A stretch of 25,537 nt of DNA from contig NZ_JAPEOB010000011.1 in assembly GCF_026341775.1 (NCBI RefSeq), forward strand, positions 1 to 25,537, read 5' to 3'. Below, one piece after another: positions 8,185-23,509 of this stretch (its first letter is position 1; the number at the start of each line of letters is the position of its first letter). This DNA comes from Streptomyces sp. NBC_00654. Lineage in GTDB: Bacteria; Actinomycetota; Actinomycetes; Streptomycetales; Streptomycetaceae. Below the pieces are notes generated by a model. It saw only the letters and a list, made by a program, of their open reading frames with translations. It was not told the DNA's origin and made no database searches. A program made the position numbers and the translations under genes.

Positions 8185-8195
8185 CGGACCGCTCC

Positions 8196-8327: not shown

Positions 8328-8364
8328 CGTGGTGCATCTGGTGGCTGATGAATTTCTCCTGGTC

Positions 8365-9392: not shown

Positions 9393-9411
9393 GGGTGCTC
9401 CTGGGGTGTCC

Positions 9412-9485
9412 GGGCCGGGCTGTCCGGCTCCCCGTCACCACCCGGGCCGCCGTGGGGCGGTACGGGTGGATCAGGCAGCCGTCAG
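9412..9485 (-). ncRNA. Intercistronic stem-loop element, copy A
   Basis: Read on the minus strand, it has the conserved 5' flank GGCTGCCTGATCC, a stem (ACCCG...CGGGT with an inner CCGCC/GGCGG helix), then the conserved 3' flank GGTGACGGGGAGCCGGACAG. It lies between the 211-aa-frame membrane gene and the PycTM gene. See the finding on the four copies. Confidence 0.6.
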
Positions 9486-10060
9486 GACCGGTGCAGGTGC
9501 ACCACGGGTCGCAGCGAGATGCCGCGCATCGCGAGGGTGGAGCAGATGGTCCAGGCGATGACGGCGAGGCCGGTGGCGATGGTGCGGCCGGCGGTGGGGG
9601 AGGCGTCCCACACCATCGCGGCGGTGGCCGTGCCGTGGGCGATCCAGGTGAGGCGGGGGCCGACTCCGGTGGAGATCCAGGCGCCGATCAGGCTGCCCAG
9701 TCCCACGGCCTGCCAGATGACGTAGAGCGTGGTGGCGGTGATCGGGAGACCAGCGGTGTGGGCGCCCAGGTAGGTGCGGACGGGGTCGGTGATGGTGTCG
9801 GCCCACTGGGTCGCCCAGGTCCAGTCCTGGTTACGGGACCAGCCGATCGTGTCGGGGATGACCCAGTTGACGGCGGCGACCAGGGCGAGGATGCCGACCA
9901 GGACGATGCCGACGATCGCGCCGGGCGGAAGGTCGTCGAGGGTGTTGACCGGCTGCGGCAGCCGGGGCGGTGCGGGGCGGCGGGGCCGCGGTACGCGCTG
10001 TGCGTCGGGAATGGTGTGGAGCGGGGGGACCTCGGGGCCGGGCTCGTGGGTGTCGCTCAC
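9482..10060 (-). CDS. Multi-pass membrane protein of the transfer operon (Spd-like)
   Basis: From GTG 10060 this encodes 192 aa. There is a Pro/Arg-rich cytosolic N-terminus of about 45 residues, then hydrophobic helices at about 50-70, 110-135 and 140-190 (four predicted in all). No enzyme motif is visible. Its place between TraB-region genes and its make-up resemble the Spd membrane proteins that help spread conjugative Streptomyces plasmids through mycelium; that role is inferred. The longer frame starting at 10117 would extend through stem-loop element B, so I prefer GTG 10060 (weak GAAAGCGAG upstream). The stop lies inside element A. Confidence 0.7.
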   Translation of the reverse strand: MSDTHEPGPEVPPLHTIPDAQRVPRPRRPAPPRLPQPVNTLDDLPPGAIVGIVLVGILALVAAVNWVIPDTIGWSRNQDWTWATQWADTITDPVRTYLGAHTAGLPITATTLYVIWQAVGLGSLIGAWISTGVGPRLTWIAHGTATAAMVWDASPTAGRTIATGLAVIAWTICSTLAMRGISLRPVVHLHRS

Positions 10061-10087
10061 CGGTACTCGCTTTCGGGGTCGGGGTCG

Positions 10088-10160
10088 GGGCCGGGCTGTC
10101 CAGCTCCCCGTCACCACCCGGGCCGCGCACGGCGGTACGGGTGGATCAGGCAGCCGTCAG
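10088..10160 (-). ncRNA. Intercistronic stem-loop element, copy B
   Basis: Flanks are the same as in copy A, with one change to CTGG in the 3' flank. The stem is ACCCG...CGGGT with a shortened inner helix and loop. It sits between the RRQRL-type gene and the 192-aa membrane gene. Confidence 0.6.
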
Positions 10161-10174
10161 ATGCGGTGCGCGGT

Positions 10175-10615
10175 TCATGCGGCGGCCAGCTGCTCGTACG
10201 GCGTGGCCGTGTAGCTGCCGGGGTCGGCCGGGGTGCCGTCGTGGCATTCCAGGCAGGTGCCGAGGGACCGGAGCGGGAGGCAGTAGTGGTAGCGGCGGCG
10301 GCAGGAGGGGCAGGTCTGCCGGCGGGCCATCGCCCGGTCGAGGGCCAGCTCTTTGGCCAGGGTCATCGGCCGGACGGGCAGGGCCTTTTCGACGTCGTAC
10401 AGCCAGGCCCTGCGGGTGCCGGACCGGCATTCGATCTGTGCGACGGGGTCCTGGCCGCCGGGGCGTAATCGCATGTCGCGGAGCTGGCGGCGGGTGGCGA
10501 GTCCGCGGGGTGCCTGGCGCCACGGGTAGGTGGGGATCGATCCGGTCCGGCCGTACATCTCGACGTCCTGGACGACGGGTTCGTCAAGTGGGTGTGTGGG
10601 GTCAGCGGCGGCCAC
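10175..10615 (-). CDS. RRQRL-motif zinc-binding protein
   Basis: This 146-aa protein belongs to a family common on Streptomyces plasmids and integrative elements and annotated for its RRQRL-type motif. The motif is present as TRRQLRDMRLRPGG near residues 43-56. A treble-clef-like zinc site follows: CPSCRRRYHYC and then CLECH, in about residues 100-128. The role in the cell is unknown; genes of this family sit in transfer operons, which fits here. The GTG start at 10615 lies inside the preceding gene (14-base overlap with its end), so translation is probably coupled. A second GTG six bases upstream is equally possible. Confidence 0.72.
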   Translation of the reverse strand: MAAADPTHPLDEPVVQDVEMYGRTGSIPTYPWRQAPRGLATRRQLRDMRLRPGGQDPVAQIECRSGTRRAWLYDVEKALPVRPMTLAKELALDRAMARRQTCPSCRRRYHYCLPLRSLGTCLECHDGTPADPGSYTATPYEQLAAA

Positions 10616-11075
10616 GGCCACCCCGGCCGGTGTGGATCCGGACCTTCGCACGGCCGCGGGCGTTGACGTGGATGCGGGTGCGGCCCCCGCCACCGGAGCC
10701 GAGGATCTTGAGGACGACGACGCCGCCCACCAGGACGACGGCGAGGATCGCCAGCGCCTTGAGGAACGCCGCCAGGGCGAGGACGAACTGGCCGATGAAG
10801 TAGAGGGCGATCGCGGCACCGGCGAGGATGACCGCGCCGAGCGCCGCCTTGATGAGGAGCGGGGAGACCGGGACCGGCGGGGCGGGTGCGGGAGGCGGCG
10901 TGTAGTAGGCGATGGGCTGCCCGTGGGGGCCGGGCATGGTGACGACGCCGTCGATCCCGGCGGCCGGCGGGTAGACGACCGTGCCCTGGGGGAGCGGGAC
11001 GACGTGCTGCCCGTACTGGGGCGGGTGCGGGGCCGGGTAGTAGGTGGGCTGGGTCTGGTCGCCGTAAGACGGCAT
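10602..11075 (-). CDS. Proline/tyrosine-rich membrane protein, Spd-like, 157 aa
   Basis: The N-terminal 65 residues are rich in Pro, Tyr, Gln and Gly with no secondary structure expected. Two hydrophobic helices follow at about 72-97 and 100-124, then a basic Gly/Arg C-terminal tail (about 130-157) that could contact DNA or RNA. This architecture is usual for SpdB-type plasmid spread proteins, which sit in the membrane and can interact with TraB. The ATG has GAGGAGAG about 11 bases upstream. The hairpin region before it (11125-11165) may modulate expression. Function is inferred from context. Confidence 0.7.
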   Translation of the reverse strand: MPSYGDQTQPTYYPAPHPPQYGQHVVPLPQGTVVYPPAAGIDGVVTMPGPHGQPIAYYTPPPAPAPPVPVSPLLIKAALGAVILAGAAIALYFIGQFVLALAAFLKALAILAVVLVGGVVVLKILGSGGGGRTRIHVNARGRAKVRIHTGRGGRGRR

Positions 11076-11205
11076 GATGAGGTCTCTCCTCTGTTGGGGA
11101 GCCGGGTGGTGATCATTGGCGTGAGATTCGCCCGGGAGGCTTCGGCCTCTTCGCCCGTCCCCGAGGTGTTTGCCTCATCTCGGGGGCGAGCGGAGCCGTC
11201 GAAGC

Positions 11206-11373
11206 TCAGTCGGTAAGTGCGGCGAAGCGGGTGGCGGTCTCTCCTTGCGGGTGCGGGAAGACCATCGGTTCCGTCTCGCGCGGCGGCACGGTGTCGATGG
11301 TGAATCCGCCGGTGCTGACGAAGTCGAACGTGATGTCCGGGGCCGGTTCGGGTTCGGGCTGGTTGCGGAGCAA
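11206..11373 (-). CDS. Small acidic protein, 55 aa, TTG start
   Basis: This frame is read from TTG 11373, with GAGGGAGAA 4 bases upstream, to TGA at 11206. The product begins MLRNQPEPEPAPDITFDFV and has a mixed acidic/aromatic composition with PRETEPMVFPHP in the middle. It contains no membrane helix or cysteine. It starts only 15 bases after the DUF2637-type gene and is in step with the operon. Codon third positions are strongly GC-rich, as in its neighbours. I do not recognise a family. A downstream ATG exists but would give only about 20 residues. Confidence 0.6.
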   Translation of the reverse strand: MLRNQPEPEPAPDITFDFVSTGGFTIDTVPPRETEPMVFPHPQGETATRFAALTD

Positions 11374-11388
11374 CGGGTTCTCCCTCGG

Positions 11389-12849
11389 TCAGGCGGCGTT
11401 GGTGTCGGTGTCGTCGGTGGCGAATGCCTCGAGGGCTGCGGCGATCACCGAGGTCTCGAATCCGTCCTCTTCTTCGAGGCGGCGGCGTGCGCTGCGGGCG
11501 CGGTCGCCGGTCCAGGTCTCGCCCTTGCCGTAGTGGTTTGCGAGGCCTTCCAGGTCGGGGGTCACGCCGTTCAGGAGGCACTTCGCGACGTAGCGCTCGG
11601 CTTCGTCGCGCTGCTTCTCGCGCACTTCGCGAGGCACCCGGCCCTCACTTTCCGAGCCGACCGCGACGAGCGCCGCCCCATTCTTCGAGCCGTTTCCCGA
11701 GGTGCGGCCGGAAGTAATCGAGGCGCGGCGACCACTGTTCTCCGAGGCGCGCTGGTCGCGCTTCGCGGCCCGCTCCAGTACCTGCTGGCGCTTGAGTTTC
11801 TCGGCTTCTTCCAGGGCGCGGGTTTCGGCTTCCGCCTTCTCCAGCAGGGCTTTGGCCTCGGCTTCCGCCCGGATGATGTCGGCTTGGCGCGTGGCTTCCC
11901 GGTCGCGGTCCTCCTGGTCCAAGGCGGCCTGGACGCGCAGCCGGTCGGCTTCGAGTTCGGCCTCGCGTTTGGCGCGGAGCGCCTCGCGTTCTTCCTTCTC
12001 GCGCTCCAGCCGGGCCGTGTCGCGGGCTCGCTCGATTTCTGCGCGGCTGGCCCGGTCGGCCAGCTCGATTTCTGTCTCGCGCCGCTCGCGTTCCAGCCGG
12101 GCGGCGTGCTCGCGTTCTTCGCGTTCGGCCTCGATTTTCGCCTCGCGTTCGGCCTTCGCGATCTCGCGTTCTTCGCGCTCGCGGTCGCGGTCGCGTTCCT
12201 CGCGTTCCCTCGCGTTCTTCGTCTCGCGTTCTTCGTTCTCGCGGTCGCGCTTGGCCGCTGCCTCGCGTTCGCGGTCCGCGAGGAGGCGTCCCTCGTAGAT
12301 GTCGATGACGGCCTGGTGGTGCGCGAGGCGGCCCGCGACGTACTTGCGGTAGCCGGACGCGGCCTCGGAGAGCAGGATCAGCAGCACCGGGGCGATGGAG
12401 TGGAGCAGGATGCCGCCCGCGTCCGGCTTCTGGGGGACGAGGTGGAAGTGGCCGTCCGGGTAGAGGCTGGTCCAGCAGTTCATGACCCAGGTGCTCAGTC
12501 CTGCTGTCCAGCGGAGCAGGAAGGGCCAGCCCCCGGCCTTGTATCCGCCCTGTTCGGCGAGGACGCCGTCGACGTAGAGCACGGTGATCAGGGCGAGGGA
12601 GGCGAGCGGGTCGAGCATCCAGGCGACGTACCAGGGAATGTCGTGTGTCATCGCGAAGCGGGTCACATTCACACACGTGAAGATCAGTGCGCCGCCACCG
12701 AGGGCGAGGAGCGCCTTGGTGACGAGGTCGCCGACCTGCTTGAGCTTGCCGATCGCCTCCGTGGCCGTGTCGCGGTCCTGCTTGGTGGCGTGAGCGGGTG
12801 TGCCAGGCGGTCCGGTCTTCGGCCGGCGCTCGGTCGCAGTGCTCGTCAT
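11389..12849 (-). CDS. DUF2637-type membrane protein with long coiled coil and C-terminal helical DNA-binding-like domain
   Basis: This 486-aa protein has membrane segments at about residues 45-63, 74-97, 108-128 and 146-163 in a DUF2637-like domain. A very long charged helix of Glu/Arg/Ala heptads follows at about 185-400, then a C-terminal domain (about 415-465) with a winged-helix look (YVAKCLLNGVTPDLEGLANHY). Such proteins are encoded beside traB on actinobacterial conjugative elements. Tethering DNA or TraB to the membrane through the coiled coil is a reasonable inference, not shown. The start has GGAAGGTAG in front. It is separated from traB by about 160 bases packed with GGTGCGCA repeats. 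Confidence 0.8.
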   Translation of the reverse strand: MTSTATERRPKTGPPGTPAHATKQDRDTATEAIGKLKQVGDLVTKALLALGGGALIFTCVNVTRFAMTHDIPWYVAWMLDPLASLALITVLYVDGVLAEQGGYKAGGWPFLLRWTAGLSTWVMNCWTSLYPDGHFHLVPQKPDAGGILLHSIAPVLLILLSEAASGYRKYVAGRLAHHQAVIDIYEGRLLADREREAAAKRDRENEERETKNAREREERDRDREREEREIAKAEREAKIEAEREEREHAARLERERRETEIELADRASRAEIERARDTARLEREKEEREALRAKREAELEADRLRVQAALDQEDRDREATRQADIIRAEAEAKALLEKAEAETRALEEAEKLKRQQVLERAAKRDQRASENSGRRASITSGRTSGNGSKNGAALVAVGSESEGRVPREVREKQRDEAERYVAKCLLNGVTPDLEGLANHYGKGETWTGDRARSARRRLEEEDGFETSVIAAALEAFATDDTDTNAA

Positions 12850-12864
12850 GGCTACCTTCCGTAA

Positions 12865-13002
12865 GGTGCGCAGGGGGTGCGGACCGCACCGTGCGCAGAG
12901 GACAAAGTGGTGCGCATCGGACGGTGCGCGGAAGAATGCGGGGCCCCTACCTGGGGCGGGGACGGGTGCGCACGGTGCGCGTCACTGCGCACCGTGCGCA
13001 CC
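12865..13002. repeat. Nine-copy 8-bp motif array, candidate clt (conjugal transfer locus)
   Basis: Exact GGTGCGCA occurs at 12865, 12909 and 12965 on the plus strand, and as its complement at 12986 and 12995. One-mismatch copies lie at 12876, 12890, 12923 and 12974. The last four copies form a strong dyad (12965-13002). The array fills the gap directly after traB. TraB translocases of Streptomyces recognise short 8-bp repeats in clt through a C-terminal winged helix, so this is the best clt candidate on the plasmid. Confidence 0.6.
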
Positions 13003-13011
13003 ACCCGGCGG

Positions 13012-15207
13012 TCACTCTTCGTTGACATTTCCGGGGTCGGAGAGCGGGGAGCGGAGGATGTCGTACTGGCCGAAGCCCTCCTCGGTCTCGTCCTCGGAGA
13101 TGACGCCCGCCTCGATCAGGCGGTCCCGCTCGCGGTAGAACCAGCGCTTCGTGTCGCCCAGGTCGATCCGCATGAGCAGGTCGGTCACTTCGCGCGGAGC
13201 AAACGAGAATTTGCCACTGCGCACCCATTCGTCGAGGCGGGCGTACAGGGCGTCGCGCCCCTGCGCGGAGGTGAGGCGCTCCGCGTCGTCCACGGCGAAG
13301 TCCAGGCTCAGGACCGGGGTGTCCTCGGGCGCCTCGATCTCGTCCTCCAGGCGCAGCCCCTGGTACTCGCCCGGTTCGGGGTCCTCGTCCAGGACGAGCT
13401 TCATCATCTCGGTCAGGTCTTCCACCTCGCGGGCCATGGTCTCCTCGTCCACGTCGTCCATCTCCTCGATCTCCGGGGGGTCTGGCGAGAGAACCGGCTC
13501 CGCGTACTGCTCGACCGGCTGCTGCCGGGCGGCGGGGACCGGCGCCTGGGCGGGCGCCGCCGCAGGGGCGGGCGCGCCCAGGTCGTCTTCGTCCGGTGCC
13601 GGCAGCAGCGGGGTGTCGTAGGTGAGGCGCTGGGTGTACAGCTCGCCCAGCGCCTTCGCGGTGACCTCGTCCATCGGGGTGCGGACGTCGACGGCCGCGG
13701 TGATGGCTGCCGCCAGGTCGGCCTTCGACGCGTTCTCGGTGCGGGCGGTGATGTGCCAGCGGTCCTCCGCGATCCCGAGGCCCGCCACGTACAGGTAGCC
13801 CGGCTTGCGGTTGCCCCACTGGGGCCAGGCCCCGGCCTCGATCGCCTCGTCCGGCAGGCAGTACTGCGCGTCCGAGCCGTCCCGCAGGCCGTAGCACAGG
13901 CCAGCGGGCGAGTTGGCCCGCGAGTCGGTGTCCATGTTGTTGTGCGTCGCCCGCTGGAGGCTGGTCTCGATCCAGATCCCGGCGGCACGCGCGGTGCGCA
14001 GGATCTTCTGGTACGCCTCGTTGTCGGCGGCGTAGTCCGCGGCTTCCTCGCCGATGACGACCAGGAAGTTGAGGCCGCAGCCCGGCTTCCAGTACGGCAG
14101 GCCCTTGGCGGCCAGGTAGTCGGTACGGGCCTCGATGACGGAGGCCAGGATCTTGAAGAACCGGCGGGCGGTCCCCTTGTCCTTGATGCACATGGCGATC
14201 CCGTGCCGCACCGCGCCGAAGTCCTGGTCGAACTTCGCGCAGTCGATGGCGATGACGGACGCCTCGGTGCGGGTGGCCGTCTCGGTGATGATCAGCGCGT
14301 TGCCGACCGTCTTGCCCGCGCCGTTCACGCCCATCGCGATGCCGTGCTCAACGTTGCCGTTCTTCAGGCCCTGCGGGTCGCGCAGCTGCCCGGGGATGTT
14401 GAGGACCAGGTCCTCGCCGTCCTCGTAGCGGCCGATGCGGATCGGCGAGTCCCCGAAGGACGCGCCGAAGTTGGAGGGCCCCCGCCAGGGGAAGCCCTCC
14501 TTCAGGAGATCGGCTACCTGCACCCGCAGCGACACGACGGACGAGTCGTCCTCGTCCACGGTGTGTGTGATGCGGCCCTTGCCGACCTTGAGTGCGGACG
14601 CCAGGGCGGGGATGCGGCGGGCGAGTTCCTCCGCTGTGGCACCGTCCGTGCCCTCCACGGTCGCGGTGACCGTGCCCTTGCCGTTGGACACCGGGTTCTT
14701 CAACTCGTGTTTGGCGAGCCCGATCGCGTCCTCGAGCTTGGCCCACTTCCCGCCGGCCTTCGTCTCCTTGCCCTTGGTCCCGAACTTCGACCAGAGGTTG
14801 TTGGCGAGCGCCATCCCGGTACCGGCGGTCGCCCAGGCCCCGGCCGTCGCGGCCGACTCCAGACCGACCACCGTGCCCAGCGTCACGCCTGCCGCCACGA
14901 CACCGCAGTTGACGGTGTGCATCAGCCGGGTCTCGCGGTCGACCTTCGCCCGCACGTCCAGCTTGGCCATGAACTGGGTGAGCGCGAAGCCGGTCCCGGC
15001 CAGCGCCAGCGAAGTGAAGCTGGCCATCGCCGGATTCCCCGCGACGGCCAGGTGCAGCCCCTCCACCACCGCACCGCCGCCCAGCACGACGCCCCACGGA
15101 CCGCCGTAGGTCAACAGCCCGGATCCCTCGGTGCCCTCCTCCGCAGCGAAGGAGTCCTTGCGACGCGACCGCAGACCCCGGCCGAACGCCTTGTCCCGGC
15201 GCGCCAT
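13012..15207 (-). CDS. traB: TraB/FtsK-family conjugative DNA translocase
   Basis: This 731-aa protein would be a hexameric ATPase that moves double-stranded plasmid DNA between hyphae. Hydrophobic segments at about residues 33-60, 66-80, 100-118 and 122-138 anchor the N-terminus. Walker A is GVNGAGKT (293-300), and Walker B is FLVVIGEE (381-388). The ATPase core is followed by a Pro/Ala/Asp-rich linker (about 530-640). A C-terminal winged-helix-like domain (about 665-725, with VRSGKFSFAPREVTDLLMR) fits the DNA-reading gamma domain of FtsK/TraB. The length is usual for the family. The ATG overlaps the previous stop (TGATG), so translation is coupled. The repeat array directly downstream is a likely binding target. 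Confidence 0.9.
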   Translation of the reverse strand: MARRDKAFGRGLRSRRKDSFAAEEGTEGSGLLTYGGPWGVVLGGGAVVEGLHLAVAGNPAMASFTSLALAGTGFALTQFMAKLDVRAKVDRETRLMHTVNCGVVAAGVTLGTVVGLESAATAGAWATAGTGMALANNLWSKFGTKGKETKAGGKWAKLEDAIGLAKHELKNPVSNGKGTVTATVEGTDGATAEELARRIPALASALKVGKGRITHTVDEDDSSVVSLRVQVADLLKEGFPWRGPSNFGASFGDSPIRIGRYEDGEDLVLNIPGQLRDPQGLKNGNVEHGIAMGVNGAGKTVGNALIITETATRTEASVIAIDCAKFDQDFGAVRHGIAMCIKDKGTARRFFKILASVIEARTDYLAAKGLPYWKPGCGLNFLVVIGEEAADYAADNEAYQKILRTARAAGIWIETSLQRATHNNMDTDSRANSPAGLCYGLRDGSDAQYCLPDEAIEAGAWPQWGNRKPGYLYVAGLGIAEDRWHITARTENASKADLAAAITAAVDVRTPMDEVTAKALGELYTQRLTYDTPLLPAPDEDDLGAPAPAAAPAQAPVPAARQQPVEQYAEPVLSPDPPEIEEMDDVDEETMAREVEDLTEMMKLVLDEDPEPGEYQGLRLEDEIEAPEDTPVLSLDFAVDDAERLTSAQGRDALYARLDEWVRSGKFSFAPREVTDLLMRIDLGDTKRWFYRERDRLIEAGVISEDETEEGFGQYDILRSPLSDPGNVNEE

Positions 15208-15698
15208 CAGGCTGCGCTCCGGCCCTCGGGACCAGCCGATCGGTACGGCTTGTCACCGATGATGAAGCCCTCGTTCTTGGGCTTGACCTTCTTGTTCTGC
15301 GCCTCGATCTCGGGCTTCACGAAGTGCTTCTGGAAGCTCGCGTACATCTTCACGCCGGACAGACCGACCACCCGCGCCGCAGAGGCACCGGCACGCAGGT
15401 GCGCGCCGACGAGCTTGGCCCGGATCTTGGACTGCGCGCCGAACGTGTACCACTTGCCCTTGTACTGGCCCAGCAGCGCGGACACCCAGTCGGCGTCCAT
15501 CATCATCCGCATGGACAGCTCCAGGCCGATGGCGCGGGTCAGGCGGGCGTACTGGTAGAGATCCCGATCGTTCCGGATCTCGATCTTCTCCAGCTGCATG
15601 ACCAGCTTGGCGAGGTTGGTGGTGCCACCACCACCGCCGCCGCTGGAGGGCGACGGCGAGCTGGCGGGACCGGAACCAAGGGGAGTAGGAGTACCCAC
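15207..15698 (-). CDS. Conserved-type hypothetical transfer protein, 163 aa
   Basis: I chose GTG 15698 because GAGAGGA lies 9 bases upstream; a longer frame would read back through stem-loop element C. The first 27 residues are Pro/Ser/Gly-rich, including a run of six Gly. The rest is helical and basic, with Met-rich LSMRMMMDADWVSALLG in the middle and a Lys-rich C-terminus. No membrane helix or known motif is seen. It is immediately upstream of and overlaps traB, so it is probably made in step with it and may assist transfer. I do not recognise the family. Confidence 0.7.
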   Translation of the reverse strand: MGTPTPLGSGPASSPSPSSGGGGGGTTNLAKLVMQLEKIEIRNDRDLYQYARLTRAIGLELSMRMMMDADWVSALLGQYKGKWYTFGAQSKIRAKLVGAHLRAGASAARVVGLSGVKMYASFQKHFVKPEIEAQNKKVKPKNEGFIIGDKPYRSAGPEGRSAA

Positions 15699-15734
15699 GG
15701 TTGGACGTCCTCTCGAAAGGGGGGAAGGGGCGAG

Positions 15735-15805
15735 CGGAGCTGTGCGGCTCCCCTTCACCGCCCGTCCCGGCCGGGGCCGGTGCGGGCGGATCAGGCAACC
15801 GCCGG
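15735..15805 (-). ncRNA. Intercistronic stem-loop element, copy C
   Basis: The conserved flanks GGTTGCCTGATCC and GGTGAAGGGGAGCCG surround a stem changed to GCCCG...CGGGC. It is located between the 67-aa and 163-aa genes. Confidence 0.55.
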
Positions 15806-15813
15806 ATCCGTCG

Positions 15814-16017
15814 TCAGCTGGCGGCGTCGCTGCTCGCCGACTGAACGGCCTTGCCCAGGCCGTCGCCGAACGCGTCGATCGCGCCTGAGATCGGCGAGGT
15901 GGCGAGCGCGTAGCCGCACACCAGGGCACACAGCAGGTGAATCACCCGGGCATCGGACAACCGCCAGCACACGACGGTCGCGATCCCGGCGAGGATGAAA
16001 AGCGGCACGCTGATCAC
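15814..16017 (-). CDS. Small two-helix membrane protein, 67 aa
   Basis: GTG 16017 has CTGGAGG 5 bases upstream. Residues 3-20 form one hydrophobic helix and about 28-46 a second, followed by a short amphipathic, Ser/Ala-rich tail. It contains two cysteines in or near the membrane part. Such small membrane proteins in transfer operons are usually called Spd-like. Its exact role is unknown. The next gene follows after stem-loop element C. Confidence 0.65.
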   Translation of the reverse strand: MISVPLFILAGIATVVCWRLSDARVIHLLCALVCGYALATSPISGAIDAFGDGLGKAVQSASSDAAS

Positions 16018-16036
16018 AGGGACCTCCAGGGTGGAA

Positions 16037-16120
16037 GGCCGGGCTGTCCGGCTCCCCTTCACCGCGAAGCGCCCCTCGCCGATGCCGGCGGGGGCGCTTC
16101 GCGGATCAGGCAACCGTCAG
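16037..16120 (-). ncRNA. Intercistronic stem-loop element, copy D
   Basis: The same flanks surround the longest stem: GCGAAGCGCCCC paired with GGGGCGCTTCGC, 12 bp. It is located between the 106-aa and 67-aa genes. Confidence 0.6.
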
Positions 16121-16126
16121 ACCGGA

Positions 16127-16447
16127 TCACCAGCCGTTGAGGACCGCCTCGTAATGCGGCCAGCCGAAGCGGGCGGCAGCCGCGAGCTCCCGGGACTCCC
16201 GGGCGCCGCGCGTCCAGATCCCGGCCGCGATGTCGTGCCCGGCGGCGGCCAGCCGGTCGGCCACGGCCTGCTGGTTCCCTGCCGACCACAGGTGGTCGGC
16301 GGCGAGGACCTGCATCTCCGCGTAGCTGTAGAGCGTCGGCGGGGGCGGGGTGATCTCGCCGAGCACGATGTAACTGTCGATGTCGGCAGCACACCAGACG
16401 ATCGGGTCGCCATGCTGGTCGCGGAACTGGTCGAGGGTGAGCGTCAT
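16127..16447 (-). CDS. Hypothetical protein, 106 aa
   Basis: This is a soluble protein with an acidic N-terminal half (MTLTLDQFRDQHGDPIVWC) and an Ala-rich helical second half. Residues 60-80 (ADRLAAAGHDIAAGIWTRG) look like a helix pair. No catalytic or metal motif is evident. The ATG has GAGGAG 8 bases upstream. Its position between the Cys-rich 63-aa gene and the first Spd-like gene suggests a plasmid-specific accessory role. I do not recognise the family. Confidence 0.65.
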   Translation of the reverse strand: MTLTLDQFRDQHGDPIVWCAADIDSYIVLGEITPPPPTLYSYAEMQVLAADHLWSAGNQQAVADRLAAAGHDIAAGIWTRGARESRELAAAARFGWPHYEAVLNGW

Positions 16448-16477
16448 CTCTGTGCTCCTCGCAGTGGTGTTGGGGGG

Positions 16478-16669
16478 TCAGCGGGTGCGCAGCTGGCGGT
16501 TGTAGGCGTCCTGAAGGACCGCGAGCTTCTGGTAGAGCGGGGCGCCGCCGGTGCAGCAAGCGCCGCCCTTGGTGCGGACCCAGGCCCGGCAGACCGGGCA
16601 GGCCGCGCAGTGTGCTTTCCAGAGGCCAGCGGCCCGGAGGTAGCGCTGGTAGAGCGTCGACGTCGCCAT
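16478..16669 (-). CDS. Small Cys-rich protein, 63 aa
   Basis: The protein has HCAACPVC at about residues 20-27 and a later CC pair, suggesting one zinc knuckle. The N-terminal half is basic and Tyr-rich. The ATG overlaps the WhiB-like stop as TGATG and lacks its own ribosome-binding site, so it depends on translation of the WhiB-like gene. It may bind nucleic acid or assist regulation; function unknown. Confidence 0.65.
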   Translation of the reverse strand: MATSTLYQRYLRAAGLWKAHCAACPVCRAWVRTKGGACCTGGAPLYQKLAVLQDAYNRQLRTR

Positions 16670-17310
16670 CAGGCGGCGCTGGCCGACCGCACCGGCCGCC
16701 GGAGCGGAACGACCCGGTTGTACTGGTCGGTCTCGTCCCGCTCCGGCCCCCGGGCGTCGTCGTCCTGGGTCATGTCGTCGGCGATCCCGGCGCGAAGGCC
16801 GGTGGTCCCCCATCCGGTCCGCGCACGGCGGGCGGTGCGGATCCGACGGATGCTCGCGGAAAGGGCGCGGAGCCGGAGGTGCTGCTCGTGCCGCCGCTGG
16901 TCGGTGTCGGGCGACCGCCCGGCCTGGGTCTGCAACTCGACGGACAGATCCTCGAGGAGTCGGCCCTCGGTGTCGCGGTCGCGGTCGACAGCGACGGCCA
17001 GGCGCACGGCCTGGTCGACGCGGACGGCAGCAAGCTCGGGCCCGGTCAGCCCGGCGCGTACCAGCTCGTCCACGTCAGCCTCGCCATCGCCGGAGCGGAG
17101 CGCGAGTTCTTCGCACGCGGCCCGGACCGGGCAGCCGATGCAAACACGCTGCGCGGCGGTGCGGCGGGTCTGCCAGTCGGCGTCCGGCTCGTCGTCGCCG
17201 CGGAACCACATCTCAAGGTCCGAGCTGGCGCAGCGGGCGCCGGCATCGACCACGGACTGGAGCACGGCCCGACGCGTGTGCCGGGCCTGAGTGGATGTCA
17301 TCCTGTTCAT
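16669..17310 (-). CDS. WhiB-like iron-sulfur regulator, first gene of the transfer operon
   Basis: The 213-aa product has four cysteines spaced as in WhiB proteins: Cys27, Cys57, Cys60 and Cys66, with CIGCPVRAAC matching the family. In WhiB proteins these bind a 4Fe-4S cluster and the protein works with sigma factors. The usual GVWGG turn is replaced by RAGLTGPEL near 85-93. A long Arg-rich tail follows (about 100-213), much longer than classic WhiB proteins of about 85-130 aa. I chose ATG 17310, with GAAGGG upstream; ATG 17301 is an alternative. It heads the minus-strand operon and may control transfer genes. Confidence 0.82.
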   Translation of the reverse strand: MNRMTSTQARHTRRAVLQSVVDAGARCASSDLEMWFRGDDEPDADWQTRRTAAQRVCIGCPVRAACEELALRSGDGEADVDELVRAGLTGPELAAVRVDQAVRLAVAVDRDRDTEGRLLEDLSVELQTQAGRSPDTDQRRHEQHLRLRALSASIRRIRTARRARTGWGTTGLRAGIADDMTQDDDARGPERDETDQYNRVVPLRRPVRSASAA

Positions 17311-17846
17311 GCGTGGGTGCCCTTCGATGGAGGGTGACCTGCGAAGAAGGGCCCTTGGGGAGGCAACCCCGGGGGTCCTTCGTGTTGGGGCCCTGGTGGC
17401 CCCCCGCGTGTCGCCGTCCAGCACGCGAGGTGCGGACGGCGGCCACGGGTAGCCCAGGGCTACGAAGTGGGTGTTGGCGCGGTACTCGGTTTCCCAGTTC
17501 CGGGTGCCAGATCTCGTGAGACGCGGACCGCGAGCCGTCCGGGAGATCCGTCCGGACGGGATATGGGCGGTGAAGGTTTGCCGCGTCGTTCTTTTGCGTC
17601 GCGAGGGTGTCCACCCTCCGCAGACCGTCAGTCACAGCTGACGCTGCGCCCGGCGGTCTCCGCGTGGACTGCCACCACCAGTGGTAATGGCGTCTCGCGA
17701 CGGTTCTCCACCACCCCGGCCGCGATGTAGTCACGGCCGGACTTCGGTGATGGATGCACTGTGGAGTTCTCAAACAACGGACGCTTCCTTCGAGCCCGTT
17801 TCACCGGGTCCCTCCGGGCGCAGCGGACGTGAATGACCAGCCGCTA
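17311..17846. other. Non-coding leader of the transfer operon
   Basis: I find no convincing gene in these 536 bases. The part near 17345-17405 is made of G- and C-runs that could fold into an attenuator-like structure in the minus-strand transcript. The stretch around 17752-17830 (starting ATGCACTGTGGAGTTC) reminds me of a sequence that recurs in Streptomyces genomes, but I cannot confirm it. Promoters for the operon should lie here. Confidence 0.45.
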
Positions 17847-17965
17847 CGCATCAAGCAGTTGATGCGCATTGACCAGACAATGCGTTCCGACGTGATGATG
17901 CTGACACCCCGGGGTGCCACCCGTCAAGCGAACGCGCGAACAGTTCGCATTGACTGGACAATATG
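17847..17965. promoter_or_regulatory. Divergent control region with several dyads, candidate GntR operators
   Basis: The dyads are CGCATCAA-GCAG-TTGATGCG at 17847-17866, GCATTG-ACCAGA-CAATGC at 17866-17883, CACCCC-GGGGTG at 17906-17917 and GCGAA-CAG-TTCGC at 17936-17948. The core GCATTGAC(C/T)(A/G)GACAAT is repeated at 17866 and 17947, 81 bp apart, and each copy contains a TTGAC that could serve as a -35. KorSA/TraR-type repressors of Streptomyces plasmids bind just upstream of their own gene, which fits. Confidence 0.5.
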
Positions 17966-17990
17966 GGGGTGAGGGGGGTACATATGACCT

Positions 17991-18779
17991 ATGAAGCCGA
18001 TCTACCAGCGCATCGCTGACGACCTGCGCGAGCAGATCTCCGATGGCACCCTGCCGCCGGGCAGCAGGCTGCCGACCGAAGCGGACCTACGCGAGAAGTA
18101 CGGCACCAGTGCCCGATCTACCGTCCGGCAGGGCCTATCTCTCTTGGTAAACGAAGGCTTGATCGTCCCTCAGCGCCCCAAGGGATACTTCGTACGAGAG
18201 ATCAGGCCGCTGGTCTACCGGCCGCAAAGCGAGTTTCGGCGCCGGCCGCCCGAAGTGGACATCTACACAGACCTCCTGGCAGCCGAAGGGGACGAGCGCC
18301 GTCCAGCCCAGGACATCGAGGTGTCGATCGTGGAGCCCAACATCACGGTCAGGACACGCCTACAGCTCAAGGACGAGCTGGTTGCCGTGCGTCGCCGCAC
18401 GCGCCGCCTCGATGGGGAGGCGTACAACATCAACGACTCCTATGCGCCGCTCTCCCTGGTTGAGGGCAGCGAGTGGATGACTCCTAGCGACGTTGCCCGG
18501 GGAACCAACCAGGTCCTAGCCGAGCTGGGGAAAGAACTCGTCAGAGCCTTGGACGAGATCTACGTGCGGATGCCGACGCCCGACGAGGTACGACGTCTAC
18601 AACTGGGCCCAGGCACGCCCGTTGCGGAGCACGTGGTCACCACGTACGCCGCAGACGACTCGCCGGTCCAGGTCACCATCAACGTGGTGCCAGGCGACCG
18701 ACACGTAATCGTGTACGAGCGTGTCAAGGATCCGCGAGACTTCGAGGAGCGCCCCCGCTCCGACTGGGGTGCCGAATGA
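17991..18779 (+). CDS. GntR/HutC-family transcriptional regulator (KorSA-like)
   Basis: The 262-aa protein has an N-terminal winged helix (residues 3-70: PIYQRIADDLREQI, then LPTEADLREKYGTSARSTVRQ and the GYFV wing) and a C-terminal UTRA ligand domain (about 90-250). That is the standard layout of HutC-type GntR regulators. On Streptomyces conjugative plasmids and ICEs, proteins of this class repress transfer genes and themselves. Its divergent position to the WhiB-led transfer operon supports that job. The ATG at 17991 follows GAGGGGGG by 12 bases; the ATG at 17984 is out of frame. It overlaps the acetyltransferase gene by four bases (ATGA). Confidence 0.92.
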   Translation: MKPIYQRIADDLREQISDGTLPPGSRLPTEADLREKYGTSARSTVRQGLSLLVNEGLIVPQRPKGYFVREIRPLVYRPQSEFRRRPPEVDIYTDLLAAEGDERRPAQDIEVSIVEPNITVRTRLQLKDELVAVRRRTRRLDGEAYNINDSYAPLSLVEGSEWMTPSDVARGTNQVLAELGKELVRALDEIYVRMPTPDEVRRLQLGPGTPVAEHVVTTYAADDSPVQVTINVVPGDRHVIVYERVKDPRDFEERPRSDWGAE

Positions 18780-19315
18780 TCATCACCCCTGCCGAAGAAG
18801 CAGATCTGCCGCGGCTGCTCAAATTCCGCAAGGACACATCCGTGTGGCTCGGAGCGCAGGGGATCGATCAGTGGTCGAAGCCTTTCCCTGCTGACCACAT
18901 TCTCGCCAGCATCCGCGCCGGGGAAGTATTCATGATCAAGGAATCTCCCATGCGTGATGCTGCGGCGACAGTCACTCTTGACGAGGATGCCGACGAGCGG
19001 CTCTGGACCGCCTCGGAGCGTGCGCAGCCTGCCCGCTACGTGCACAAGCTAACGGTCGATCGCGAGCACGCAGGAACTGGCTTGGGCGCGCGCATCCTCG
19101 ACTGGGCAGGTGACGAAGCAGCACGTGCGGGCGCCAAGTGGCTGCGGCTCGATGCATGGACGACCAATCCGCGTCTGCACGCCTATTACCGTCGCCAGGG
19201 GTTCGTCCACATCCGTACATCGCCTGACCCGGACGTGGTTTCTGGCTGGGTTGCTCAACGACCGGCCCGAGCCTCGTCTCACGGCCTGGTGGTCCCTGAC
19301 AGGATGACGTCATGA
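18776..19315 (+). CDS. GNAT-family N-acetyltransferase
   Basis: The 179-aa protein carries motif A of the acetyl-CoA-binding site, VDREHAGTGLGARIL (about residues 94-108), and a later WLRLDAWTTNPRLHAYYRRQGF segment typical of the C-terminal half of GNAT enzymes. It should transfer an acetyl group to an amine; the substrate cannot be told. It is translationally coupled to the GntR gene. GntR-GNAT pairs recur on Streptomyces elements and might adjust resistance or stability functions. A terminator follows after about 30 bases, closing a two-gene unit. Confidence 0.9.
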   Translation: MIITPAEEADLPRLLKFRKDTSVWLGAQGIDQWSKPFPADHILASIRAGEVFMIKESPMRDAAATVTLDEDADERLWTASERAQPARYVHKLTVDREHAGTGLGARILDWAGDEAARAGAKWLRLDAWTTNPRLHAYYRRQGFVHIRTSPDPDVVSGWVAQRPARASSHGLVVPDRMTS

Positions 19316-19345
19316 CGCACGTCGCCCGCCCCCCGTAACGCGGAC

Positions 19346-19380
19346 GAGCCGCCCCCTCCTGGCAGGGAGGGAAGCGGCTC
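19346..19380 (+). terminator. Terminator after the GntR-GNAT unit
   Basis: GAGCCGC pairs with GCGGCTC, and an inner C-rich/G-rich helix extends the stem around a GGC loop. There is no T-run. Confidence 0.7.
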
Positions 19381-19423
19381 CATTCGACTCGCAGTGGCCA
19401 TACCCACGCCTGAGTCGTTGTCC

Positions 19424-19471
19424 GGTGAGGTGACCTCGCCGGGGTGATACCCACGTATCCGCGTGGTCACC
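19424..19471. promoter_or_regulatory. Dyads upstream of the 315-aa gene, possible operator
   Basis: GGTGAGGT-GACCTCGCC (19424-19440) is nearly palindromic. It is followed by an interrupted dyad at 19443-19471 pairing GGTGA with TCACC and CCACG with CGTGG. They may bind the product of the downstream gene or another regulator. Confidence 0.4.
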
Positions 19472-19547
19472 TTCGCCAAGGGTACGCGGCGCGCCCTACC
19501 AAGCGCCACCACCCGAGGCCCATCCTGGTCACACCCGGATCACGGCT

Positions 19548-19563
19548 CCCCTAATCAGGGGAC
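19548..19563 (+). promoter_or_regulatory. Small hairpin covering the ribosome-binding site of the 315-aa gene
   Basis: CCCC-TAATCA-GGGG places the Shine-Dalgarno sequence (AGGGGAC, six bases before GTG 19570) in its 3' arm. This could damp translation of a replication gene. The stem is only four GC pairs. Confidence 0.35.
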
Positions 19564-19569
19564 AGTCCC

Positions 19570-20517
19570 GTGACCCAGCACACCCCGATCCCACCTGATG
19601 AGTGCAAATCCTGCGTCAAAGTGTTCGCGCAGCTCAGCGCGGCGACCGAGCGCCTGAGCAACGCTCAGCTGAGTGCCGCCGTCGCGCTGAAGGACCGTGC
19701 GCTACGCATTCACATCTCCTACCTCGTGCAGCACCGCCGGGTCGAAGACGACCGGCGAACGCCGGTCCCGGGCATGACCGTCGCCCCGGCCGCCGTCACA
19801 CCGGCAGAGGACATCTGGACCCCGTTGGACTGGGTCCTCACTGTCACCTGCCCGGACCGCACCTGTCGCCGCATCCTTGTCGTGCTGGCCCGTGAAGCTG
19901 ACGCGGCGTGGGGCGGACAGCTGAGTCTCCGTGAAATCGCGGAGCGCGCCGGATGCAGCGTCCGCACGGCCAGCACCCACCGCGCCCACCTCATCGACGC
20001 TGGTCTCCTCCGGGCCACCGTCACCGCCGTACACCGGCCCTCCGGGCACGTCGACCGCAGCGCCGACCGGTATCTGATCCTCTCCGGTCAAGTGGCGCCC
20101 GGCGCCTCGTGGGAAGAAGACGCAGCACGGGACGTGCTCGCCCGGATCCGGTGGTGGCAGGGAGGAGCCAGCGAAGAGCGGCAGCGCGCGGTATGGCGCA
20201 TCCTTCGCCGGATGCGCAACGGCTGGCCCGCGCACGAGCTGGTCGCCCGTACCGACATCGAGCCCGCCCGCACGGTGGTCTCACGGCTCCGGCTCCTCGA
20301 CAAGCTGCTGCCCGGATCCGACGAGCCGTACGTCATCCCAGCCCGCGAGGCCGCGACCGGCATCGCGGCCGGGCCGGTGTTCTGTGCCGCCGGGTGCGGC
20401 GCGCAGTTCCCGCACGTCGCTCAGGTCCGGCCCGGCACCGTCTGCCGGGACTGCCGCACCGAGACCGCCACCGCCCACTACGCCCAGGCCGCTGGGGCGT
20501 ACGGCACCGACTTCTGA
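19570..20517 (+). CDS. Winged-helix/zinc protein upstream of tpg: candidate replication initiator or Tap-like partner
   Basis: The 315-aa protein has a clear helix-turn-helix at about residues 118-148 (LSLREIAERAGCSVRTASTH) inside a winged-helix domain. A second helical domain at about 185-250 could be another winged helix (GWPAHELVARTDIEPARTV). A C-terminal zinc ribbon uses Cys272, Cys276, Cys292 and Cys295. Tandem winged helices are a known plan for iteron-binding initiators. The gene is directly upstream of tpg (14-base gap), the place of tap in many linear replicons, but it is far shorter than Tap (about 700 aa) and I see no similarity. No other replication gene is visible on the plasmid. 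The role is inferred from fold and context. Confidence 0.75.
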   Translation: MTQHTPIPPDECKSCVKVFAQLSAATERLSNAQLSAAVALKDRALRIHISYLVQHRRVEDDRRTPVPGMTVAPAAVTPAEDIWTPLDWVLTVTCPDRTCRRILVVLAREADAAWGGQLSLREIAERAGCSVRTASTHRAHLIDAGLLRATVTAVHRPSGHVDRSADRYLILSGQVAPGASWEEDAARDVLARIRWWQGGASEERQRAVWRILRRMRNGWPAHELVARTDIEPARTVVSRLRLLDKLLPGSDEPYVIPAREAATGIAAGPVFCAAGCGAQFPHVAQVRPGTVCRDCRTETATAHYAQAAGAYGTDF

Positions 20518-20531
20518 CGGGGGACCACATC

Positions 20532-21077
20532 ATGGGCAAGATCCTCGACGCGATACGTGCCCGGACCTGGACCCGGGCACTCCCGAAGAGCCCGAGCGCC
20601 CAACTCAACCTGGTGATGCGCGCGGAAAAGGGCAGCACCCGGGCGGTGGCTGCCCGGCTCGGCGTCTCCCAGCGGACCATCCAGCGCTGGGTCAAGGGCG
20701 AGCAGCAGCCATCGGCACGGATCGCCGGTCGCCTCCAGGAGGAGGCCGCCAAATCCCACCAGCCGCGCGTCACAGCACGCGCCCGGCGAGCAGCCGGCGC
20801 CGGAGGCATACGAGTGGAGACACGAGCCACCTTCGGTTTCCGTGCCGCCCCCGGAAGTACCGACGATGCCCGCCTGCGCCGTATCACCGACGACCTGCCG
20901 CGAGAGCTGGCCGGACGCCTGTGGGACGCAGCCGCGGCCGGTGACGAGTCCCAGTTGCAGCGCCTCGTAGGCGAAGGGCTCGGGCACGCCTACTTCCGCG
21001 ATGGCGGACGCCGCGCGGACGGACTCGACGTCGAGCTGACCGACATCGACTACATCGACCTGGACTGGAATCAGTAG
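20532..21077 (+). CDS. tpg: Telomere terminal protein Tpg
   Basis: This 181-aa protein matches the Streptomyces Tpg family in length (about 184 aa) and in pattern. The N-terminal part has a helix-turn-helix (residues 36-54, AVAARLGVSQRTIQRWVKG) and a basic stretch (WQPR-like HQPRVTARARR). A middle domain holds RATFGFRAAPGSTDDARLRRIT, and the C-terminus ends in YFRDGGRR and DVELTDIDYIDLD. Tpg is covalently bound to the 5' ends and primes end patching after replication. The priming Thr of the S. lividans protein (Thr114, from memory) should fall near Thr110 here; alignment is needed. The ATG has GGGGGACC upstream. It is probably cotranscribed with the 315-aa gene. Confidence 0.93.
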   Translation: MGKILDAIRARTWTRALPKSPSAQLNLVMRAEKGSTRAVAARLGVSQRTIQRWVKGEQQPSARIAGRLQEEAAKSHQPRVTARARRAAGAGGIRVETRATFGFRAAPGSTDDARLRRITDDLPRELAGRLWDAAAAGDESQLQRLVGEGLGHAYFRDGGRRADGLDVELTDIDYIDLDWNQ

Positions 21078-21134
21078 AGCAGCCGCGGCAGTCAAAGAGC
21101 GCGGCCTGAATCGGCGGACCTGCAAGATGGAGTC

Positions 21135-21812
21135 ATGAGCGACGAGATAGCCCAGGACCCCTGGGCTCAGCGTGTGTACATGACCTGGCTGGCGAGAGAT
21201 GCCCGCTACGCGCTGGAGGCATTGGAGAGGCTGATGACCCAGGCCCACCTCGATCCGATGCCTCCAGCGGCATGGTTCTACCTCGAAAGCTTCCTTGCCT
21301 TCACCGGCAAAGTCTCCAGGATGCTCCGGCCCGTCGAGCAGAAGAGCCATGGGCAGACCAACGAGGGCGTCCAGTGGCGGCTGAAGCGTGGCGCCTACCT
21401 GCGAAGCGTCCTTGGGATCGAGGACGCTTCGCCGTTGTGTGAGCGCGGTGTTCGCAACGCAAGCGAACACTTCGACGAGCGCCTGGATGAATGGGTCGTC
21501 CACCATCCCCGACCGACGCTCACTGATCTGGAATCCGGCACCGCGACGTTCCCCGCGCCTCCGATGCGGCTCATCAACGCACAGTCCTGGACCGTGGAGG
21601 TGGTCGACGTCGTGCTGGAACTGAAGCCCGTGGACCAGGAGCTCCGGCGGATCTTGGCCAGGATCGAGGAGCTTCAGCCACTGGCCGGGCTGCAGAATCC
21701 CGAAGCCGCGGCGATGCTGGGCAGCCTTTTCTCCGTTCCGCTCGTCTCGTTCAGTGCCCCGACGCAGCGCCCTGATGAAGACGTCACAGCAGGTGTGATG
21801 CCTGCCGAATGA
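21135..21812 (+). CDS. Hypothetical protein, 225 aa, beside the origin array
   Basis: This is a soluble, mostly helical protein. Residues 15-60 form Ala/Leu/Arg helices (MTWLARDARYALEALERL), a Trp/Phe segment (AAWFYLESFLAF) follows, and the C-terminal 60 residues are helical and end in a polar tail. No catalytic, zinc or DNA-binding motif stands out, and I do not recognise a family. The ATG has GGAG three bases upstream. It starts 57 bases after tpg and ends just before a strong palindromic terminator. It may belong to the replication transcript. A HEPN-like helical fold is conceivable but not supported by a clear RxxxxH motif. Confidence 0.75.
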   Translation: MSDEIAQDPWAQRVYMTWLARDARYALEALERLMTQAHLDPMPPAAWFYLESFLAFTGKVSRMLRPVEQKSHGQTNEGVQWRLKRGAYLRSVLGIEDASPLCERGVRNASEHFDERLDEWVVHHPRPTLTDLESGTATFPAPPMRLINAQSWTVEVVDVVLELKPVDQELRRILARIEELQPLAGLQNPEAAAMLGSLFSVPLVSFSAPTQRPDEDVTAGVMPAE

Positions 21813-21838
21813 GCACGGACTACCGATCCATTCCGCCC

Positions 21839-21866
21839 AAGGGCCCGTCCGTACGGACGGGCCCTT
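21839..21866 (+). terminator. Terminator after the 225-aa gene
   Basis: A perfect 28-bp palindrome, AAGGGCCCGTCCGT and its complement, 26 bases after the stop codon. It insulates the origin array from upstream transcription. Confidence 0.85.
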
Positions 21867-22215
21867 CCCTGTACGCCTGCACAGCAGCCTGAAAGCGGCA
21901 CGGGCAGGGATTCCCACCGGCATCCACCCCCAGGCGCTCTCAACGGCCTTGACAGCCGCCCAGGGTGACGAGACGCCAGGCCGCGAACCCCCAGCGGGAC
22001 CACAGGCGCCCACACACTCCGAAGTCCCGCCGCAGAGAGCCCGATTCACGGGCCGTCAGACCACCGCCCCCCAGCGGCAGCAGACTTACCGTCACCGCAC
22101 ACATGCAGTGATGCCCCCACCAGGCCACACGGCACCAGAGGCACGGCGGCACGGCCACCGGCATAGCGGCATCAACCACGTCAGTCACTCCCCGTGTTGT
22201 ACGGTTCGCGTTTCC
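21867..22215. other. Gene-free spacer between the replication genes and the origin array
   Basis: I see no plausible gene in about 350 bases. There is scattered CAC/CCAGG-rich sequence but no repeat as clear as those downstream. Near 22197-22210 TTGTACGG occurs before the first repeat of the array. Confidence 0.5.
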
Positions 22216-22532
22216 GCAGGTCAGACTGTAGATGCAATTTCCGTGCCGCATCACCCTCTGTCATAACCGCAGGTAGACGCCGAAGATGCAATTTCCGTGC
22301 CGCCAAGGCATACGTTCGATTCACCCTGTGGATAACCAGGTCACGAATGGAGCAATTCGGACACACGCCAGCACCGACCGGCACGAGAATTGCATCTACG
22401 GTGCACCCCTCCTGACCTGCGATGATGCCAATAGCCTGTGGATAACCAATTTGCCACATGCCGCCCAAAAACATGCGGTGACCTGCAACGATTTAGGCTT
22501 GAACCCCAAAACCGGCACGTCCATTGCATCTA
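22216..22532. other. Iteron and DnaA-box array, candidate replication origin next to the right telomere
   Basis: Four 20-bp iterons share TAGATGCAAT-N3-CGTGCCG: direct at 22229-22248 and 22283-22302 (first base A in the latter), inverted at 22379-22398 and 22513-22532. Two perfect DnaA boxes (TTATCCACA read on the minus strand) are at 22327-22335 and 22437-22445, same orientation, 110 bp apart. A third motif, GCAGGTCA or close variants, occurs at 22216, 22269 and 22336, and inverted at 22413 and 22479. The stretch is clearly less GC-rich than its surroundings and has no gene. This is the strongest origin-like signal on the plasmid. Confidence 0.75.
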
Positions 22533-22540
22533 CCCTTAGT

Positions 22541-22692
22541 AGGTAGCAGTTGAGCGAGCGGAGTCGAGCGGCGCCGCCGGCCGCGAAGCGGTCCGGCCTC
22601 TCGGGCGAAGCCCGAAGGCGCTGTTTGTAGCAAGCGTAGCGCGCTACAAACGATTGTACTGCGCGCAGCGCAGTACAGACCCGCTCCGCGGG
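22541..22692 (+). repeat. Right telomere
   Basis: Reading outward, the palindromes are CCGGCCGC-GAA-GCGGTCCGG (22577-22596), TCGGGC-GAA-GCCCGA (22601-22615), TTTGTAGC...GCTACAAA (22624-22650), GTACTGCGC-GCA-GCGCAGTAC (22656-22676) and finally CCCGCTCCGCGGG (22680-22692). The last is the exact complement of the archetypal 5'-terminal CCCGCGGAGCGGG. The plasmid end is therefore expected at about 22692. The internal palindromes differ from those of the left telomere, but both ends share the GCGCTGCGCGC core of palindrome II. Confidence 0.88.
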
Positions 22693-22843
22693 CGGGTCTG
22701 TACTGCGCTGCGCGCAGTACAATCGTTTGTAGCGCGCTACGCTTGCTACAAACAGCGCCTTCGGGCTTCGCCCGAGAGGCCGGACCGCTTCGCGGCCGGC
22801 GGCGCCGCTCGACTCCGCTCGCTCAACTGCTACCTACTAAGGG

Positions 22844-23160
22844 TAGATGCAATGGACGTGCCGGTTTTGGGGTTCAAGCCTAAATCGTTGCAGGTCACCG
22901 CATGTTTTTGGGCGGCATGTGGCAAATTGGTTATCCACAGGCTATTGGCATCATCGCAGGTCAGGAGGGGTGCACCGTAGATGCAATTCTCGTGCCGGTC
23001 GGTGCTGGCGTGTGTCCGAATTGCTCCATTCGTGACCTGGTTATCCACAGGGTGAATCGAACGTATGCCTTGGCGGCACGGAAATTGCATCTTCGGCGTC
23101 TACCTGCGGTTATGACAGAGGGTGATGCGGCACGGAAATTGCATCTACAGTCTGACCTGC
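22844..23160. other. Mirror copy of the iteron and DnaA-box array
   Basis: Same four iterons and two DnaA boxes as at 22216-22532, in reverse orientation. Confidence 0.7.
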
Positions 23161-23509
23161 GGAAACGCGAACCGTACAACACGGGGAGTGACTGACGTGG
23201 TTGATGCCGCTATGCCGGTGGCCGTGCCGCCGTGCCTCTGGTGCCGTGTGGCCTGGTGGGGGCATCACTGCATGTGTGCGGTGACGGTAAGTCTGCTGCC
23301 GCTGGGGGGCGGTGGTCTGACGGCCCGTGAATCGGGCTCTCTGCGGCGGGACTTCGGAGTGTGTGGGCGCCTGTGGTCCCGCTGGGGGTTCGCGGCCTGG
23401 CGTCTCGTCACCCTGGGCGGCTGTCAAGGCCGTTGAGAGCGCCTGGGGGTGGATGCCGGTGGGAATCCCTGCCCGTGCCGCTTTCAGGCTGCTGTGCAGG
23501 CGTACAGGG

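Follow-up and report, generated by a model that had tools for sequence, protein, structure and literature searches.

A putative replication origin abutting one telomere, beside a proposed rep gene and tpg, in an 18.1-kb linear plasmid of Streptomyces sp. NBC_00654

Results

Comparison with related plasmids gives good support to a putative replication origin that abuts a telomere and lies beside a probable rep-tpg operon in Streptomyces sp. NBC_00654. The segment in question (nt 22215-22536), an array of iterons and DnaA boxes, is likely the origin of an 18.1-kb linear plasmid with terminal-protein-type ends, where Rep and DnaA would open the DNA and the ends would be patched by Tpg priming. 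An origin had already been suggested at this place by a sequence-only reading, and its identity is now supported by other linear plasmids, where similar arrays stand downstream of related genes and nearly always occupy one end.

The window, i.e., the whole stretch of DNA that was analysed, is the entire contig C11 (25,537 bp) of a 9.6-Mb assembly in 15 contigs. It consists of a linear plasmid unit of about 18.1 kb (nt 4549-22691), read through at both ends. At the right fold the contig is a perfect palindrome, exact over 2623 bp, with arms 7 nt apart (22684|22692); at the left fold the arms are 99.6% identical over 4.2 kb. Both fold points sit within packed, telomere-like palindromes, so that the packed terminal palindromes proper to terminal-protein-capped linear replicons are found at both plasmid ends. 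In the right telomere (nt 22540-22691) they extend up to the fold point, and beyond it a mirror copy of the array is found (nt 22840-23161; self-match at 22836-23176), which is no second feature since the contig reads through the right end. The two telomeres differ. Sequence related to the left telomere region (nt 4549-4834) was found in the same genome on contigs C4 and C12. For the right telomere the genome gave no further match, and the DNA of nt 21800-22690, right telomere included, retrieved no similar sequence from the plasmid records. Contig C4 (G000:C4 near 347744) folds back at the left-telomere-related sequence, ~11 kb before the contig end, and is a further linear replicon whose end was read through. 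The sign of a fold-back in C12 is weak, consisting of one 105-bp match to the left telomere in both orientations. Covalently closed hairpin ends, as described for the left end of pELF1 (PMC6863802), were also considered; a folded contig alone is compatible with hairpins, and the presence of a tpg gene (see below) makes them less likely.

The sequence-only reading had listed four 20-bp iterons, two direct and two inverted, and all of them were found: iteron 1 (nt 22228-22249, + strand), iteron 2 (nt 22284-22303, + strand), identical to iteron 1 over 20 nt, and the inverted iterons 3 (nt 22379-22399, - strand) and 4 (nt 22513-22533, - strand), the latter being the closest to the telomere. The corresponding AGATGCAAT cores, at 22230(+), 22284(+), 22389(-) and 22523(-), are the sole four in the 18.1-kb unit, with 0.039 expected per dinucleotide shuffle. 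Motif search also detected two perfect TTATCCACA DnaA boxes on the - strand, box 1 (nt 22327-22335) and box 2 (nt 22437-22445), reading TGTGGATAA on the + strand at 22327 and 22437, 110 bp apart. No other perfect box occurs in the unit, and two within 120 bp were obtained in 0 of 1000 shuffles, in keeping with the earlier remark that such a pair in one orientation is notable. The expectation of 0.14 perfect boxes given with that remark is lowered at the real composition, to 0.017 per shuffle. Chance is excluded for the iterons and for the pair of DnaA boxes. Thus ~20-bp repeats near rep (four copies) and DnaA boxes in the same region (two, perfect), both characters of iteron-type origins, are present.

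Five short motifs had been reported as well. Three of them are perfect GCAGGTCA motifs (at 22216, 22413 and 22479), and the other two turned out to be degenerate, one being a shorter CAGGTCA at 22337 and one, near 22268, matching more weakly. The perfect copies coincide with the TGACCTGC matches of the motif search at nt 22216-22223 (- strand, inside TGACCTGCGGAAACG), 22413-22420 (+ strand) and 22479-22486 (+ strand). By itself the 8-mer is not rare, occurring four times in the unit (one at 17335) with 0.8 expected per shuffle. As to the longer TGACCTGCGGAAACG, it was present in all of the 9 genomes searched, chromosomes included, up to 9 times, and is thus not special to the arrays; the highest counts were observed in G104:C1 (nine copies) and G108:C1 (six), in same-strand groups, and the backward control occurred in none of the genomes.

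The array is AT-richer than the plasmid, as previously noted (GC 54.7% vs 68.0% in the unit), although it is not its most AT-rich place. The lowest GC (39% near 4899) was observed ~350 bp from the left end, in the stretch 4879-5000, which contains TTGATGAA-like repeats and is a weaker candidate for an unwinding element. Iteron 4 ends at 22533, that is 158 bp from the right end (22691), confirming the ~160 bp estimated earlier.

Three frames upstream of the array, all on the + strand, point towards it. The first (nt 19570-20517), ending 1.7 kb before the array, encodes a 315-aa winged-helix protein that we propose as the initiator (Rep). The second (nt 20532-21077) is tpg, coding for the terminal protein (NF047541, 206.3 bits, cut-off 90), a neighbour that had escaped mention in the sequence-only reading; the Tpg of a terminal-protein-capped replicon is thus encoded by the plasmid itself. 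Its start codon was taken from the reading frame, and profile scans used nt 20535-21077. Since this start lies 14 nt past the rep stop, rep and tpg probably form one operon. The predicted Tpg carries a Thr within an S-T-D-D motif, the counterpart of the position of T114, described as the priming residue of the S. lividans terminal protein with Ser before and Asp after (PMC3572947). Relatives of tpg were detected in 394 of the 72,556 plasmid records. No tap was matched on C11 by profile search, and four matches over the cut-off were found elsewhere in the genome (two on C4, one each on C5 and C7), two of which have one in-frame stop. The third frame (nt 21135-21812), encoding 225 aa, had no Pfam, NCBIfam, PHROGs or PADLOC match, and its sole match among plasmids was a distant one (26%) in Tritonibacter mobilis. 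A perfect 28-nt palindrome (nt 21839-21866), retrieved by palindrome search after the operon, is a possible terminator.

The Pfam matches of the 315-aa protein are helix-turn-helix domains (HTH_36), and the PHROGs collection gave weak matches to replication initiators (best E 1.2e-4). A structure model was obtained from an alignment of 25 sequences (pLDDT 83.8, pTM 0.39). Foldseek retrieved no match to this model at E <= 0.001; RepE ranked 9th (E 0.025), a likeness confined to the generic winged-helix fold, and entries named 'Rep-DNA complex' and 'Structure of initiator' were listed amid many unrelated winged-helix proteins. We take these initiator matches as leads, not as proof. None of the other plasmid genes scanned was initiator-like; they comprise a ParA-like gene, a PycTM effector, TraB- and TraA-like genes (below cut-offs), WhiB, GntR, GNAT and unknowns. 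Relatives of the 315-aa protein are rare, being detected in 10 of the 72,556 plasmid records, in 9 of 392 genomes of the genus (its own included) and 25 times among 7995 scored candidates of a large protein search; the closest were P0011, at 64% identity, and P0022, at 56%. None was found in 50,697 phage records, and among the 36 and 33 pattern matches that an alignment of close relatives retrieved from the genome-contig and viral-contig collections, respectively, no relative was confirmed. A 317-aa relative was observed in NZ_CP108608.1 (nt 30372-31325; L003:5986-6939) as an open frame without a listed gene in the incomplete plasmid table.

The remaining repeat clusters of the plasmid are better explained otherwise, as partition-type palindromes, traB-side repeats and coding repeats. 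The possibility that the array is a partition site (parS) was rejected, given that the ParA-like gene and its partner (nt 6569-8184) have their own palindromes and the array lies 14 kb away. Just after the gene in parB position, two exact 22-nt palindromes AAGTGTCCCGGCCGGGACACTT occur at 8196 and 8228 (nt 8196-8249) and are likely the partition site. Between the traB-like gene and the next one, 8 of the 14 GTGCGCA matches of the unit (both strands) cluster at nt 12866-13001, a possible transfer locus. A PycTM-type (Pycsar) effector gene was recognised at nt 8907-9392 by Pfam and PADLOC matches; no cyclase partner was recognised among the proteins scanned.

Sixteen loci, the window included, were compared, each with the 315-aa protein or a relative of it; locus L008, whose gene runs off the record, was excluded from the counts. 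An array was found downstream of the gene in eight of them (the window, L003, L004, L005, L007, L012, L026 and, in reduced form, L006). In seven of these eight its near edge is less than 600 bp from an end, with 0.56 expected at random placement, the distance being ~158 bp in the window, 579 in L003, 460 in L004, 522 in L005, 65 in L006, 176 in L007 and 112 in L026. The record of L006 stops ~65 bp past the repeats and may lack the telomere; without it, six of seven arrays are near an end. When one plasmid per protein clade is taken, all four arrays are near the end (P ~3e-5). The remaining array belongs to a 180-kb plasmid (L012) and lies ~74 kb inside it. DnaA boxes and TGACCTGCG clusters were used to locate the array in the full records L048-L050, L006, L007 and L026 as well as in the window, and placed it at a single end in each.

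The arrays have a common layout. In L003, L004, L005 and L012 the elements follow the order iteron, DnaA-type box, ACTACGAAT, inverted iteron, TGACCTGCG (replaced by TGGCCTGGC in L012), box, TGACCTGC, inverted iteron, and the array of the window keeps this order, with a second forward iteron added and ACGAAT in the like place. The boxes are 118-119 bp apart in the relatives with the window's order, vs 110 in the window, and in L003, L005 and L012 the first of them has one mismatch (TGTGGAAAA). In L026 the boxes are reversed in orientation and 157 bp apart, the second being imperfect. Seven perfect TTRTCCACA boxes were counted in five full plasmid records, all inside arrays, where 0.5 would be expected. 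No perfect box occurs in the full records of L006 and L007; the L007 array holds a one-mismatch box only, and no box within one mismatch was found in that of L006. For L012, counts refer to a 10.8-kb locus of the 180-kb plasmid, with one perfect box in the array and two outside, ~3.1 kb before the rep stop. The type of iteron follows the protein clade, being CATTGGGTAAT in the group at 75-80% (ATTCGGTAAT in L004) and TCACACCC in the 58% pair L007/L026, and the iteron of the window stands alone. Of 392 genomes of the genus, two have the three-part motif TGACCTGC-TGTGGATAAC-TGACCTGC, and both encode a 315-aa-type protein; the reversed control was found in none. A looser array pattern retrieved, among genome contigs, five contigs and no Streptomyces (two Lachnospiraceae, one Acetobacteraceae, one Prevotellaceae and one Nonomuraea), which we took as chance.

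No array of such kind was found in the other eight loci (L009, L010, L011 and L027-L031). Four of them (L009, L010, L028 and L030) form a clade in which tpg comes directly after the gene. In L009 and L010 tpg is followed in turn by a tap matching the profile from position 161 on (L009:6513-8216, L010:6487-8199); the part of Tap that is absent there, profile positions 1-160, might be made up for by the winged-helix protein. In this clade the protein might act at telomeres.

Discussion

We file the array as a probable iteron/DnaA-type origin in an unusual place, within a recurrent but rare plasmid family. By analogy with iteron-type plasmid origins, the 315-aa Rep would bind the iterons and host DnaA the two boxes, and together they would open the DNA. 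Forks would leave both ways. With the putative origin 158 bp away from the right end, one fork would run off almost at once, meeting the end after a few hundred bases, and the leftward one would copy the plasmid. For an inference of direction from GC skew, 18 kb is too short a length when gene blocks are so strongly oriented. Both ends would be finished by patching primed by Tpg from the putative rep-tpg operon, with Tap presumably supplied by the host; the left end would be patched after the full traverse, the right one almost at once.

Gaps of ~300 nt have been described (PMC3572947), a 3' overhang of about this length normally being left to be patched by Tpg priming. In the plasmid studied here the ~300-nt tract next to the right end (nt 22392-22691) holds DnaA box 2, two TGACCTGC motifs and iteron 4. 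As a gap of this length would cover part of the array, patching and re-initiation may be linked. Origin and telomere might even be one device, with patching rebuilding the origin before it refires, or with the opening by Rep and DnaA exposing the 3' strand and so letting Tpg prime the leftward leading strand, an idea that we regard as improbable. If it held, the rep-tpg operon would be a sign of the coupling, and priming of the leading strand by Tpg would make the plasmid an intermediate between internal-origin and phi29-like protein-primed replication.

The sequence-only reading had left room for a telomere-binding or maintenance site. On this account initiation occurs elsewhere, and the winged-helix protein recruits Tpg, and Tap with it, to the right end through the array, as the adjacency of rep and tpg in the window, L009, L010, G182, G166 and G226 would suggest, together with the shortened tap of L009 and L010 for which the winged-helix protein could stand in. 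Both telomeres need patching, yet the array is found at one end only: no iteron core and no perfect DnaA box were found at the left end of the unit, where a site for Tap and Tpg serving both telomeres would have a counterpart. The internal position of the L012 array is equally at odds with it, as is the plasmid NZ_CP108511, whose tpg, preceded by a 732-aa HTH gene, is at the opposite end from the array. The DnaA boxes fit initiation, and the protein family has no sequence similarity with one Tap of the same genome (L054). The one-end array, the internal L012 array, the opposite tpg of NZ_CP108511 and the DnaA boxes lead us to consider a maintenance site unlikely for the window, so that the alternative stands weakened. 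An operator or silencer for telomere-proximal transcription, or a transfer site, with DnaA boxes that are merely regulatory, would suit winged-helix proteins in so far as these are often repressors; however, the gene of the candidate binder is 1.7 kb upstream, no credible gene follows the array, and a transfer-site-like repeat cluster is already present beside traB (nt 12866-12995), making this reading very improbable.

The end position itself might be questioned, should the contig have been cut and folded back during assembly and the real plasmid extend past 22691. Indeed, both ends of C11 are palindromic, with outer tails that depart from a perfect fold, for which reason the contig ends are not to be taken literally. 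Against such an artefact, the fold points are within telomere-like packed palindromes, contig C4 of the same genome also folds at a left-telomere-related sequence (the sign in C12 being weak), and in six relatives from other assemblies the array is less than 600 bp from the record or contig end. We hardly believe, therefore, in a plasmid that extends further, and maintain an origin close to the right telomere as the preferred reading.

Initiation in Streptomyces linear plasmids is described as central or internal (PMC3583192; PMC4513846). With plasmids of the pSLA2/pSCL1 type the window shares linearity, palindromic telomeres and a tpg-type terminal protein, whereas their origin is described as central and the candidate origin here is 158 bp from one end (PMC3583192; PMC4513846). 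In pWTY27, as well as pFP1 and pFP11, a rep gene has adjacent repeats as in the window, and there binding by Rep is known; the pWTY27 locus replicates in linear form too, once telomeres are attached (PMC3583192). Its RepA (522 aa) is, as far as described, a different Rep, and these loci are not at a natural telomere (PMC3583192). The 18-kb mycobacterial linear plasmid pMyong2 is similar in size and also has a rep gene with a repeat-bearing origin, but the putative origin described for it is internal (bp 9446-11914 of 18,089), unlike that of the window (PMC4378964). SLP2 resembles the window in having tpg without a tap on the same plasmid, and a Thr priming site in the same motif (PMC3572947). 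The lone tpg of SLP2 is described as functional but dependent on a chromosomal tap, and its description includes no link with a rep gene, unlike the rep-tpg adjacency observed here (PMC3572947). Terminal proteins and end-located origins are also found in phi29 and adenovirus, which are contrasted with end patching (PMC3572947; PMC3583192). No resemblance to a protein-primed polymerase was found among the plasmid genes scanned. Iterons and DnaA boxes are not known from phi29/adenovirus-type protein-primed replicons. The literature searched, in which few of the older subscription papers were included, gave no description of a Streptomyces linear plasmid with its origin against a telomere.

In the accepted picture replication initiates internally and both ends are patched afterwards, and a family with the origin pressed against one end would depart from it. 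If the origin is confirmed, these plasmids would be natural, very small replicons in which a single known end could be used to study fork run-off, the length of the overhang and priming by the terminal protein, and the coupling between initiation and end patching would become testable. The plasmid would also be a candidate minimal linear vector, and its rep and array would define a Rep/ori group for plasmids that mostly are without a replicon label in the plasmid collection searched.
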